A stretch of DNA of 64,000 bases. It comes from Okeania sp. SIO2C9 (lineage in GTDB: Bacteria > Cyanobacteriota > Cyanobacteriia > Cyanobacteriales > Microcoleaceae). Of the stretch, positions 5,613 through 51,124 are shown one piece after another. The stretch's first letter is position 1, and every line of letters starts with the position of its first letter. The notes below the pieces were generated by a model. The model was not told the DNA's origin. It did not search any database and saw nothing but the letters and a program-made list of their open reading frames with translations. Position numbers and translations under genes: made by a program. The stretch covers positions 1-64,000 of the forward strand of contig NZ_JAAHGO010000030.1 of assembly GCF_010672455.1 (NCBI RefSeq), in the 5' to 3' direction.

Positions 5613-5772
5613 GTTAGCGAAATATAGCAATTTGTAGAACACCTAGAAGACTTATTTGTAATATCTTACTTACCGAAAAATTGGGTCTAAAGCCTTGCCC
5701 TTCTAGGGCGACTTTTAAATTGGTTTTTCTTCAGTAAATATGTTATCATGTTGTTAGTTTAAAAGTCAGGTT

Positions 5773-6913
5773 ATGAAAGCTAGATTTAAGTATCGTATCT
5801 ATCCAACACCGGGACAAAAATACCGATTAGCCAAGCTATTTGGTTGTGTCCGTGTAGTTTGGAATGATAGTCTAGCTTGTTGTCAAGAAAAGTATCAATT
5901 AGGAGAGAAGAAACCCACTAACTCCGAGCTACAAAAACAGTTGATCACTCAATCGAAAAACACTGAAGACAGAGAATGGTTATCAGAAGTTTCTGCTATA
6001 CCATTGCAGCAATCTTTAAATGATTTAAATCAGGCTTATCAAAATTTTTTCAAATCAACTAAAGGTCAGAGAAAAGGTAGACCTATTAGACCTCCTAAAT
6101 TTAAAAGTAGAAAGTCAAAGCAAACTGCTAGGTTTACAAAGGGAGGATTTAAAGTTTGTCAACATAAAGTCTATTTAGCTAAGATTGGAAGGCTGAAAAT
6201 TGTTTCGCCTGTGAGATTTACCTGCTGCTCCATCATCAGTAACAGTAATCAAAGATTCCGCTCATAGATATTTCTTGAGTTTTGTAGTAGAAATACAACC
6301 AGAAGTATTACCTAAAACTGATAATTCAGTAGGCATAGATTTAGGTATTAAAACTTTTGCTACATTTAGCGATGGTACAAAGGTTGATGCTCCTAAGCCA
6401 CTGAAGAAACGAATTAAGAAATTAAGAAAGTTAAGTAAGTCATTATCTCATAAAACTAAAGGCTCTAAAAGGTATGAAAAAGCAAGGATTAGAGTTGCTA
6501 AGTTCCATGCAAAACTGAAAGATACAAGGACAGATTTTCTACATAAATTATCTACTAAAATAATTTGTGAAAACCAAACAGTTGTTTTAGAAGATTTAAA
6601 CGTTTCTGGTATGGTTAAAAACCGCAAATTATCCAGAGCTATATCTGATTTAGGTTGGAGAACTTTCAGAACATTTCTAGAAGGAAAAGCAGAAAAATAT
6701 GGTCGTTATTTTAAAGTAATTAGTCGTTGGGAACCCACATCTCAAACTTGCTCTAGCTGTGGATTCAAAGGTGGAAAGTTAGACCTTAAGGTGCGAGAAT
6801 GGGAGTGTCTAAACTGTGGCAGCAAACACGATAGAGACGAAAACGCAGCGATAAATATATTAGTCGCTCCTTGGGCATTCGGAGACGAGAAACGGACGTG
6901 GAGGCAAGTGTAA
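5773..6913 (+). pseudogene. tnpB: TnpB RNA-guided nuclease, single frameshift
   Basis: The two halves sit in adjacent frames. 5773-6267 gives the N-terminal helix-turn-helix and WED-like part (FKYRIYPTPGQK). 6275-6913 gives the RuvC core and zinc finger. The phase is lost near 6205-6215, in the stretch that should read KIV-WSRDLPAAP, so one base has been gained or two lost. Catalytic motifs survive in the second half: the first Asp in GIDLGIK, the Glu in VVLEDLNVSG and the last Asp in HDRDENAA, plus the CxxC pairs of the zinc finger (CSSCG, CLNCG). TnpB uses an omega RNA from the element's right end to cut DNA next to the target motif, here probably TTAC. The fragments probably make no active protein unless the frame is corrected. 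Confidence 0.85.
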
Positions 6914-7012
6914 GACTACTGCCAAAGTAGCAGCAGCCAAAGAAACGTCAACCCACCAAAGAGCTACGGCTCAGTAGGAATCCCCGCGCCTTTAGGCCGG
7001 GGAGGATGTCAA
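6870..7012 (+). ncRNA. Omega RNA (right-end guide RNA scaffold) of the tnpB element
   Basis: The last ~45 bases of tnpB and the ~100 non-coding bases after it form the scaffold that in this superfamily is transcribed as omega RNA. The final hairpin CCCCGCGCC-TTTA-GGCCGGGG and the GGATGTCAA end are the same in three places in the window. The guide would begin at 7013 (ATAACAAACAACTA). This is inferred from element architecture; no transcript evidence is available. Confidence 0.65.
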
Positions 7013-9293: not shown

Positions 9294-9519
9294 CAGATAA
9301 ATCCAGAAGATTTTTACAAGCTTCTATAACTTGGACTCAGATATTTCTATTCAGCCATTTATCAAAATGTTGGCAGAAGACCCGCGCTCTCCCGCAGGGG
9401 AGCGTCGGGATGAATGCCAATCAATCTTGCGGTTTTACAGATAATCTGTTAACTTACAAATATTGCTTAACTAAAAACCAAGGTTAAGACTACTGTAACT
9501 GTTCAATCAAGTCGCCGAG
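9294..9519. other. Intergenic with a worn IS605-like right-end fragment
   Basis: At about 9382-9415 the words CCCGCGCT and GCGTCGGGA enclose a hairpin (CTCCCGCAGGGGAG). This resembles the right-end hairpin at 9650-9689. The remainder shows nothing recognisable. Confidence 0.4.
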
Positions 9520-9689
9520 GGGCACTCGGAGACGATAAACGGACACGGAGGAAGCGTGATTACTGGTTTTGCCAGCATTTTCCAGTGAGGTGTCAACCCG
9601 CCCTGAGTCATTTGGTCAGCGAGCGTCTGTTTGAATGATGGATGGGAATCCCGCGCTGCAGGTGCAGGTCAGCGTCGGGAGGATGTCAA
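9520..9689 (+). ncRNA. Omega RNA-like relic without tnpB
   Basis: Begins GGGCACTCGGAGACGATAAA and contains CGGACACGGAGGAAGC, GTCAACCCGCC, a hairpin CCCGCGCT...AGCGTCGGG and the end GAGGATGTCAA. The order and wording match the tnpB right end at 6870-7012 and the element at 50279-50420. No tnpB and no recognisable left end precede it. It is either a decayed right end or a stand-alone guide scaffold. The following guide sequence starts at 9690, about 30 bases before the 3' end of trmJ. Confidence 0.6.
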
Positions 9690-36476: not shown

Positions 36477-38015
36477 TCATTGGGTAATGGGTAATTGGTA
36501 ATAGCTCAAACAGCCTCAAAATCTATGAAATTGCAGATTTGTAGAGCTAGGATTATAGCTATGACATCTTATCATAACTGATTAGAAGAAGTAAGAAGGA
36601 AGAGGGAATAAGGAAGAAGGAAAAAGGAAAAATATTACTTTGTCTGAATTTTAAGCTTTTGATAAGCCTTAACCTTTCTTTCGACTGCTATGTATCAAAA
36701 GTTTTGGTAGTCCGAAAGTGGTTAAATATCAAGAAGATTAGAACTATTCCCAACGTGGTAATTTCAGTTATCAGTTAACAGTTATCAGTTATCAGTACCT
36801 CTGCAATCAGGAGGCTTGACATAAGAAATATTTTGGAGGCGCATACCCACAATTTCTCGGTAAATATGTAGCAATATTCTAAAATTGGGGCGACCATTGC
36901 ATCAGAATAATACCATTTTTCACGCATTATTGTTAAATATCCTTGAGAGTAGGGAGTAGGTTCAACAATTAATAATGAATAATGAATAATGAATAATTAC
37001 CTCTCCTTGAAAGGAAGAGGATTGACTAATAATGAAAATTTTTTTTTATTATCCCCTTAAAAGGGGAGGCTTTAAACCACAATTTTTCGGTAAAAAGAAA
37101 TAAGATATTTTGGTTTAATACCGATAATCGCATGCAAACATTACTGAAGCATTATTATCACTTAATAACTGAAGTCGCATCTAAACTATAGCATTATTTT
37201 TGGTAATTTGTATAATGTATTAAATTTCATATAGATATTAAATGATTTTCCAATTTTTTTTTAAAGGATAAAGTCTTCCTAACAAGATGGGAAATTCACT
37301 GACGAAGAGTATGATTAAAGCGTTCAATATAAGGGTGCTTGAATAAAGCCAAAAATTTATCGCTTTTAGGCAACAGCTCATCTGGCCACAGGCAACAGGG
37401 AATATATAGGAAAAAAGTATTTTTGCAAATATGAGATGCACCCCAATATAACTTGTTGTACCTATTTATTTTTCTACTATTTTATGTCTGATTGATAGAG
37501 AAACTTGATTATAAACTGACCAAAAATATGTACAGAACTAATTTGGCATCTATATCGATCGACTTTATATTATGAGAACCTCAATTCTGCCAAATTAAAC
37601 AATGATTTTTAGAGAGCGATCGCTCGCCATAAATATTTCTTTTACCCGGTGGTATGCCTAAACTATAAAAATTTAAAAAAAATCAAAAATTAAGTATTTT
37701 AAAATTGAACAATTTTTATGACCGCTACATATCTACCACTTCCCCTAAAAGCTGAAAACTCACACAACGCCAGATTTTTGCTTCTTCCTTCTGTTATACA
37801 AAAAAATACAGTAGAAATTAGTCTCTCGTTTCTACTGTATTTAAAGTCAGATCATTAATAGAATATCCCTTTAATTAGTGATAAAAAAATCATCTTCTTT
37901 CTCACTTCAACGGCAAATCTATCCCTGCTCTGCTACTCAATGATTTATAAGTATTAAACCAGACATGATATTAGAATTATCCCAGTCTGTAATTTAAGAT
38001 TATTTTTGATTTAAT
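36477..38015. other. Gene-poor stretch with repeat and IS remnants
   Basis: 36597-36650: GGAAGAAGGAA run. 36765-36800: CAGTTATCAGTTATCAG run. 36970-37089: minus-strand TTAC-family repeat ending AATTTTTCGGTAA. 37232-37349: IS1 remnant. 37600-37640: HIP1 within a short palindrome (GAGAGCGATCGCTCGCC). 37962: lone family 2 MITE end (CCAGACATGATATTA). Nothing else recognised. Confidence 0.55.
37232..37349 (-). pseudogene. IS1-family transposase, C-terminal fragment
   Basis: The minus strand reads ALFKHPYIERFNHTLRQ, then a TGA stop, then ISHLVRKTLSFKKKLENH. This is the conserved end of IS1-type transposases (HPYIERFN-x-TLRQ, LVRKTLSFSK). The rest of the gene is gone and the frame is broken. Confidence 0.7.
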
Positions 38016-49786: not shown

Positions 49787-50184
49787 AGGCTGAAGGGATA
49801 AGTCTGGTTTATTTTTTTCCATCAAGTTATGGTATGTTATTCATCAACCTGACTTGTTTTCTACTTGAACTAATATAGTTTATAGTTGTGATAAAACTCA
49901 GGTAATCATAATCACCAAAGGTAGAATTTTTAATGGCAGAGACAAAAATAAAAATAGACCTACCACCACCTTTTCCCGATCATACTCAATTACCAGATGA
50001 AGACGACACCTTTGTGAAAAATTTCCAGGAACATCCCCAAAGCATCCTTTTAACTGATTCCATCGCACCAATTTTACAACAACGACACCCAGATGGAAAT
50101 TATGTGATCGGGCAAGATAGTGGTATCTATTGGCGAGAAACAGAACCCCCCGAAAGAGGAGCAGAAGCACCAGATTGGTTTTAC

Positions 50185-50420
50185 CGAAAAATTGGGTTTA
50201 AAGCCTCGCCCTTGTAGGGCGACTTTTTATTTCATTTGCAAGTGAATTGGATATATGCTAAACTGTTATTAGTTGCCGGGGGGCACTCGGAAACTCTAAA
50301 CGGACGTGGAGGGAAGCATCAGACTACCGCCAAGGAAGCAGCACCCTGTGAAGCGTCAACCCGCCGAAGAGCTACGGCTCAGTAGGAATCCCCGCGCCTT
50401 TAGGCCGGGGAGGATGTCAA
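50185..50420 (+). mobile_element. Non-autonomous IS200/IS605-type element (236 bp, no tnpB)
   Basis: It lies exactly after TTAC (50181-50184). The left end CGAAAAATTGGGTTTAAAGC with hairpin TCGCCCT-TGT-AGGGCGA, and the right end with CCCCGCGCC-TTTA-GGCCGGGG and GAGGATGTCAA, match the tnpB element at 5674-7012. The middle, where tnpB should be, is deleted. There is no target duplication, as expected for this superfamily. Removal of these 236 bases rejoins the host reading frame without a scar. Confidence 0.9.
50279..50420 (+). ncRNA. Omega RNA-like scaffold in the tnpB-less element
   Basis: GGGCACTCGGAAACTCTAAA, CGGACGTGGAGGGAAGC, GCGTCAACCCGCC, GAGCTACGGCTCAGTAGGAA and the terminal hairpin are nearly identical to the tnpB element's right end. 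The guide would begin at 50421 (ATTCCCAATGTACC), that is, host Uma2 sequence. Expression is not known. Confidence 0.6.
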
Positions 50421-51124
50421 ATTCCCAATGTACCACCACTATTAAACGGTGAAATTCGTTGTTTCTATTGTCTGTGGCTAGAATATATAGCACCTTTAAT
50501 TGCTCTAGAATTTGCCAGTAGAGACGGAACAGAAGAATTAGACAAAACACTTTTGTCAGTTTCCGAAGATGGTGAAACAACAAAACCAGGAAAATTTTGG
50601 GTATACGAGCAGATTATTAAAATAGATTACTACGGAATATATGTCATCAAAACTGGCAGTTTAGAAATGTATCATTTAGAGGATAAGTCTTATCGCCAGA
50701 TGTCTCCGAATGAGCGGGGTCACTACTTTATTAGACCCCTGGGGATAGAATTGGGAAAATGGGAAGGTTACTATCAAAATCAAACTCTATCATGGTTACG
50801 GTGGTGGGACTCTGAAGGTAATTTATTGTTAACAGGAGCAGAAAGAGCAGAAGTAGAAAAAGCGCGTAGCGATCGCTTTGCCAATCAAGCAGAACAAGAA
50901 CGCCAACGGGCTGAACAAGCAGACCAACGTGCAGAACAGGAACGCCAAGCACGAAGAAATGCTATTCCTCAATTATTAGCAACGGGAATGAGTGTGGAAC
51001 AAGTCGCACAAATTCTTAGTTTAACTGTTGAGGAAGTGAGGAAAATTTCTGATAGTTAACTAATACAGCAGATTTCAAGTATATGAAGTACAGATATTAA
51101 CAATTAAATCTTCTCAGAGCATCT

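Follow-up and report, generated by a model that had tools for sequence, protein, structure and literature searches.

A tnpB-less IS605-type mini element in an Okeania Uma2 gene that retains an omega-RNA scaffold and probably relies on a borrowed TnpB

According to current thinking, TnpB keeps a transposon from being lost: it cuts empty sites, and the transposon itself makes the guide for this. Can such a guide RNA still serve an element that has lost tnpB? This question is raised by a 236-bp insert in a Uma2 gene of Okeania, a marine filamentous cyanobacterium of the order Oscillatoriales. The window, i.e. the whole stretch of 64,000 nucleotides that was analysed, is taken from a 10.9-Mb draft Okeania genome. 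An initial annotation, made from the letters of the window, had described the insert as a tnpB-less IS605-type element with its guide-RNA scaffold intact and had proposed that it might be a guide-only selfish element.

The insert, its ends and its sites

The mini element lies at 50185–50420 (+ strand; all features below are on this strand unless noted). It directly follows the tetranucleotide TTAC (50181–50184), which is identical to the left cleavage site CL of IS608 (PMC5934647) and is the presumed TAM. The insertion is precise and without target duplication. The interrupted Uma2 gene spans 49933–51059 (49933–50184 and 50421–51059) and reads through once the insert is removed. In-silico removal joins 84 codons to 213 (stop included) with DWFY-IPNVPP at the join and gives an uninterrupted protein of 296 aa that matches PF05685 with an E-value of 6e-13, so that the claimed restoration of the host frame held. 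The 236 bp contain no ORF and leave no room for tnpB. Both ends are shared with a related tnpB-only element of the window at 5674–7012, in which tnpB is frameshifted (ORFs 5773–6267 and 6275–6913). The left 43 bp of the mini are 93% identical to 5674–5716, and its last ~154 bp are 84% identical to 6858–7012 with identical terminal 52 bp. This alignment confirmed that an insert with both ends of the tnpB element, and without tnpB, follows TTAC.

The mini has all four tetranucleotides of IS608, namely the cleavage sites TTAC and TCAA and the guide tetranucleotides AAAG and GAAT (PMC5934647), and they are nearly invariant across the Okeania minis. AAAG (GL, 50200–50203) adjoins the left hairpin and is invariant in 64 unique Okeania minis, while GAAT (GR, 50386–50389) and TCAA (CR, 50417–50420) are each found in 62 of the 64. 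The left-end hairpin TCGCCC-TTGTA-GGGCGA (50206–50222), which is followed by a T run and is also terminator-like, keeps its stem through loop swaps (CCCTTGTAGGG / CCCATAAGCGGG). The right-end hairpin CCCCG-C-GCC-TTTA-GGC-CGGGG lies at 50390–50410. With a fixed tetranucleotide 5' of the insertion, no duplication and subterminal hairpins with guide and cleavage tetranucleotides, the mini belongs to the IS608-like IS200/IS605 elements. It is also a PATE, having no transposase gene, near-terminal palindromes, neither terminal inverted repeats nor duplication, and many copies. It is not a strict MITE, as its left and right ends differ and the empty sites show no target-site duplication.

The initial annotation had proposed a search for the same element with other flanks and for an uninterrupted Uma2 allele, and both were found. 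At least 40 near-identical full-length copies with 83–100% identity and differing flanks occur in this genome, including a 100% identical one on another contig (L001), and the mini is thus not a chance match. An 18-base right-end pattern occurred 94 times in the genome (≤1 mismatch) compared to 0 for the control; all copy counts in this genome are lower bounds. The minis fall into two main length classes of 236–238 bp and 257–260 bp. Where tnpB is present and the left end was recognised (about 20 copies), the length is 1336–1549 bp. In a scan of named genomes, a mini-specific 25-mer matched Okeania records only. Over 118 mapped copies from several species, the left flank was TTAC in 99, TGAC in 15, TCAC in three and TCAG in one. 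At L256 and L245, minis adjoin one another a few bases apart, one being inserted after TTAC just downstream of the other.

Empty sites, whose absence from related strains had been named as a refutation of the guide-only proposal, were present in sister genomes. A joined-flank search returned Uma2 homologues without the insert in the sister genome G041 (94% identical) and in a second genus (G058, 94%). The homologue in the sister genome G044 is 92% identical and uninterrupted. The 16 nt after the insert (50421–50436, ATTCCCAATGTACCAC), the presumed guide, are the host gene's own downstream sequence as had been claimed, and TTAC plus guide is uninterrupted and exact in one sister species, that of G044 (L168/L200). 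Since Uma2 genes are multicopy, orthology of these homologues to the interrupted gene is likely rather than proven. The site of another mini copy (L010) is empty in the sister species G042, where the corresponding 220 bp match with 100% identity. For a tnpA gene that is interrupted by a mini, the same genome encodes an intact paralogue. The empty alleles restore the flank exactly and have no duplication. The genome was also inspected for second targets of two guides. For a mini in a multicopy repeat, no second site matched perfectly, the nearest intact TTAC sites having three mismatches. For the mini in the tnpA gene, the near-identical empty paralogue differs at guide position 1.

The omega-RNA scaffold and its promoter

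ISDra2 TnpB binds an RNA of ~150 nt that consists of the tnpB 3' end and the right end of the element and uses ~16 nt of the flank as guide (PMC8612924). The mini retains exactly the equivalent stretch as a scaffold of ~150 nt at 50271–50420, in the same place as the ISDra2 reRNA. It resembles an omega-RNA locus in its structured scaffold at the right end, in the guide in its flank and in a target motif that equals its insertion site, and deviates from it in that tnpB is not part of the same element.

The scaffold was compared in an alignment of 104 distinct sequences, comprising 61 Okeania minis, 20 minis of the second genus and 23 tnpB-linked copies. Stem 1 (CCGGG/CTCGG, 50276–50290) changes from C-G to G-C and between G-C, T-A and C-G across minis and tnpB copies. 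Stem 2 pairs GACGT (50303–50307) with GCGTC (50353–50357) and was also observed as GACGT/ACGTC, as GACAT/ATGTC in another genus and as GGCAT/ATGCC in one tnpB copy. Stem 3 pairs GGG (50311–50313) with CCC (50344–50346); the tnpB copies have GGC/GCC instead of the GGG/CCC of most Okeania minis, so that both sides have changed. Stem 4 is a hairpin (CTACC/GGAAG, 50324–50338) with a founder A.A mismatch. The mismatch is found in 53 of the 61 Okeania minis, compared to A-T in the tnpB copies and in the minis of the other genus, and counts against perfect function. A further hairpin, GAGC-TACG-GCTC, lies at 50369–50380.

Stem positions were canonical in 96.2% of cells for the Okeania minis, 90.3% for the second-genus minis and 96.9% for the tnpB copies, compared to 22–48% with slid partners, a control that favours the structure because the latter was partly derived from the same sequences. 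Double-sided changes are the stronger measure of structure. They numbered 23, 19 and 28 in the three groups, respectively, versus 0–6 in the slid controls; some may reflect descent from different tnpB ancestors. Single-sequence folding was uninformative, with z-scores against shuffled sequences of -0.28 for the mini RNA, i.e. no gain in stability, and -1.09 in a second fold. It is covariation, and not folding energy, that supports the structure. Searches against Rfam gave no match for the window or for the longer minis. The initial annotation was thus right that the scaffold is retained in the tnpB-less mini: the ~150-nt omega-RNA is complete, its stems carry compensatory changes and hairpin pairing is not lost in other copies.

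Several variants of the scaffold were observed. In L092, L117, L127, L133, L260 and L375, the same ~40-nt hairpin (CCCACCCCCATCCCCTCCCGGGAGGGGAGCAAGAGGGGTGGGT) replaces stem 4 in minis as well as in tnpB copies, as if scaffold hairpins were swappable. L009, L015, L018 and L021–L030, which form a class of 258–260 bp, have a 23-nt scaffold insertion (TTAGCGGCAGCTATGCGAAGC) in mosaic with other variants, which suggests recombination among copies. A divergent third omega-RNA-like scaffold, for which no left end was recognised, is located at 9505–9688 of the window; it ends in GGATGTCAA and has GACAC/GTGTC as stem 2.

Directly before the scaffold, TGCTAAACT (50256–50264) contains the extended -10 promoter motif TGNTANNNT, assigned by sequence conservation and inherited from the tnpB left end. 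In 64 unique Okeania minis, element positions 72, 73, 75, 76 and 80 are invariant and positions 74 and 77–79 are variable. Within a variable spacer, precisely those positions that define an extended -10 (TG-N-TA-NNN-T) are therefore invariant. At the same place, TGTTATCAT or a close variant is found in most tnpB copies, and the internal deletion has thus brought the tnpB promoter directly before the omega-RNA. A plain sigma-70 consensus scan returned no -35 box.

Origin of the mini and retention of its guide RNA

The joint of the Okeania minis connects the left-end sequence ...GTTGTTAGTT with the tnpB 3' end ...ATATTAGTCGC, and TTAGT is common to both. For IS605 elements, loss of the core by repeat-mediated deletion is already known (PMC3119063). 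The minis of the second genus (G059–G061) retain ...TTTTTAGTTCACAAGAAATATATTAGTCGC and hence have a different deletion joint; judged by this sequence, they were formed independently of the Okeania minis.

The mini is probably a guide-only element, i.e. a PATE that has kept its omega-RNA and whose retention would depend on a borrowed TnpB. A tnpB-only element would have lost tnpB by internal deletion, probably at the TTAGT microhomology, leaving the tnpB promoter directly before a complete omega-RNA. A Y1 transposase would move the mini in trans, as the mini retains the hairpins and the guide and cleavage tetranucleotides that such a transposase requires. From the extended -10 promoter, transcription would run through the scaffold into the flank, so that the host sequence after the insertion becomes the guide. 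An intact TnpB encoded elsewhere would then load the mini omega-RNA and cut the empty site (TTAC plus guide), and repair from the filled copy would restore the mini there.

The TnpB required for this could be supplied by the same genome. It encodes at least ten intact TnpBs of the same family with 389–417 aa, the RuvC D/E/D motifs and zinc-ribbon cysteines, and their closest solved wild-type structure is ISDra2 TnpB (8bf8, E 4e-70). ISDra2 TnpB and reRNA from separate plasmids form an active complex (PMC8612924), and the intact Okeania TnpBs could likewise act in trans on the mini RNA. The supply of TnpA is less clear. The tnpB-bearing copies examined appear to be without tnpA as well, and hence the whole family seems dependent on TnpA in trans. 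Y1 genes occur in the Okeania genome, none of them with mini-family ends nearby, and no Y1 transposase with these ends was found among the Y1 genes of five Okeania genomes in scans of the own genome, the genus and the family. L035 was considered as the cognate TnpA and rejected, being an IS605-type tnpA/tnpB pair that carries an unrelated inserted ends-only PATE. Over the whole genome G000, very many TnpB genes (150 of 453 candidates scored) and few intact Y1 TnpA genes were observed. The proposal of a guide-only selfish element was therefore borne out in part: the element is of the IS605 type and precisely inserted, it has empty sites and a conserved scaffold and intact TnpBs are encoded in its genome, but no Y1 transposase with its ends was found in five Okeania genomes.

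The main alternative is that of an ordinary PATE, in which the omega-RNA is a passenger of recurrent microhomology deletion that is too young to have decayed; only the ends would matter and TnpA in trans would suffice. We regard this as possible, though clearly less probable than the borrowing of a TnpB. The TTAGT microhomology at the joint fits it, as recurrent microhomology could fix the position of the joint by mechanism alone, and so do the ≥90% identity among most mini copies and the founder damage in stem 4. The site-by-site diversity of the 64 unique Okeania minis speaks against a passenger. It is lowest in the left tip (0.007) and highest in the spacer (0.144), with values of 0.032 for the left hairpin, 0.060 for the omega-RNA body and 0.070 for the right end. 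The omega-RNA body is thus less than half as diverse as the adjacent spacer (permutation p ~0.009 with sites treated as independent). The invariant promoter motif and the covariation of the stems in minis of two genera point in the same direction, and the second genus has kept the whole RNA in spite of its different joint.

An omega-RNA is not needed for spread, as ends-only PATEs have spread without it in haloarchaea (52 bp; PMC3119063) and apparently also within the window. Here, ends-only PATE-like copies of other families apparently lie at 36750–36862 and from 37093 downwards (- strand), after TTTAC and without omega-RNA. They are a natural control for the minis. Within the mini family itself, a right-end-anchored scan of the genome found no short ends-only member and no two-ended copy below 230 bp without omega-RNA. 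The scan returned 44 two-ended copies below 450 bp, of which 43 scored above random for family-1 omega-RNA sequence, two of these weakly. A sister genome had two copies that seemed to lack the omega-RNA, but neither was an ends-only mini: one is a fragment truncated on the left, the other a tnpB copy in decay.

The remaining short copy, L136, belongs to a second multicopy family of 383–460 bp that occurs in all five Okeania genomes. In this family, the tail can be aligned to the omega-RNA region of another TnpB group with a score of 102 compared to a shuffled maximum of 21, the shared right-end hairpin included. A second mini family retaining a different omega-RNA speaks against a passenger. 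Taken as a sequence pattern, the retention of omega-RNAs appears to be explained better by selection on a functional guide RNA than by passive carriage. The members of the second family (L136:1515-1918, i.e. G000:C267:59172-59575, and L379–L397) are tnpB-less with related ends, and ~200 nt of conserved and apparently structured sequence precede their omega-RNA-like tail. A third short type of 365–413 bp (L120, L132 and L133) has the same ends and omega-RNA as the minis and ~140 nt of extra conserved sequence (TTCAGTTGAGAGC...), for which no Rfam match was found.

A second alternative treats the mini omega-RNAs as decoys or regulators, which would titrate TnpB or guide repression or interference against tnpB-bearing relatives instead of securing their own site. 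Many intact scaffolds would indeed compete for TnpB, and decay is common among the full-length tnpB copies. However, every guide comes from the flank of the copy itself, and TTAC plus guide recreates the empty site as homing predicts; no guide matching a tnpB element was seen in an unsystematic look. Decoys are thus improbable. That the conserved region is a peptide, the C-terminal tail of TnpB, whose frame the scaffold overlaps to ~35 nt from the right end in most intact copies, is ruled out for practical purposes by a frame-breaking +1-nt replacement (TAAA to GTGCG) in about half of the minis, by the 23-nt insertions and by the compensatory changes in the stems.

A guide-only, nuclease-borrowing element is therefore the best-supported reading of the mini; its transcription, loading, cutting and retention, and the identity of the mobilising TnpA, we infer from sequence. 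Minis that retain an omega-RNA number in the dozens and comprise at least two unrelated families of guide RNA, which suggests a class of parasites that have no genes and may borrow the nuclease of another element. Whether guide-only elements are a recurring class of gene-free IS605 derivatives parasitising both TnpA and TnpB, with at least two origins in Okeania from different TnpB groups and another in a second genus of the family, is evenly balanced in our judgement. If the reading is true, guide-only elements are cheaters of the TnpB retention system, TnpB acts in trans in nature and can be selected as a shared resource. It would also show how a guide RNA and its nuclease gene can come apart, which CRISPR-type systems required as well. 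The mapped empty alleles in sister species make the Okeania minis testable by simple assays.

Comparison with known systems

The minis have the tetranucleotides of IS608 and, like ISDra2, a ~150-nt reRNA overlapping the tnpB 3' end, and the TnpB of their family is closest to ISDra2 TnpB among solved wild-type structures (PMC8612924, PMC5934647). ISDra2 and IS608 elements carry tnpA and tnpB, whereas the minis carry neither. The proposed logic corresponds to the TnpB-driven retention or gene drive of insertion sequences, in which the cutting of empty sites favours the filled copy (PMC11870625). This is shown for elements that encode their own TnpB, whereas the Okeania minis would need TnpB in trans.

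The PATEs of Haloquadratum walsbyi (PMC3119063) are likewise IS605 derivatives without tnpA and tnpB that have near-terminal palindromes, no target duplication, a core lost by repeat-mediated deletion and many copies. They were described as fused ends, and one of 52 bp is too short for an omega-RNA, whereas the Okeania minis keep promoter and complete omega-RNA. The closest published element is a single PATE-like copy of 271 nt in Halanaerobium hydrogeniformans with the same parts, namely the left-end hairpin, the last 58 nt of tnpB and the entire right end (PMC7290912). It was described before reRNAs were known and without RNA analysis. The Okeania minis differ from it in being multicopy, in occurring in several species and in their covariation. 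New relative to this published copy are thus their success in many copies, the covariation, a second type of omega-RNA and the occurrence in a second genus.
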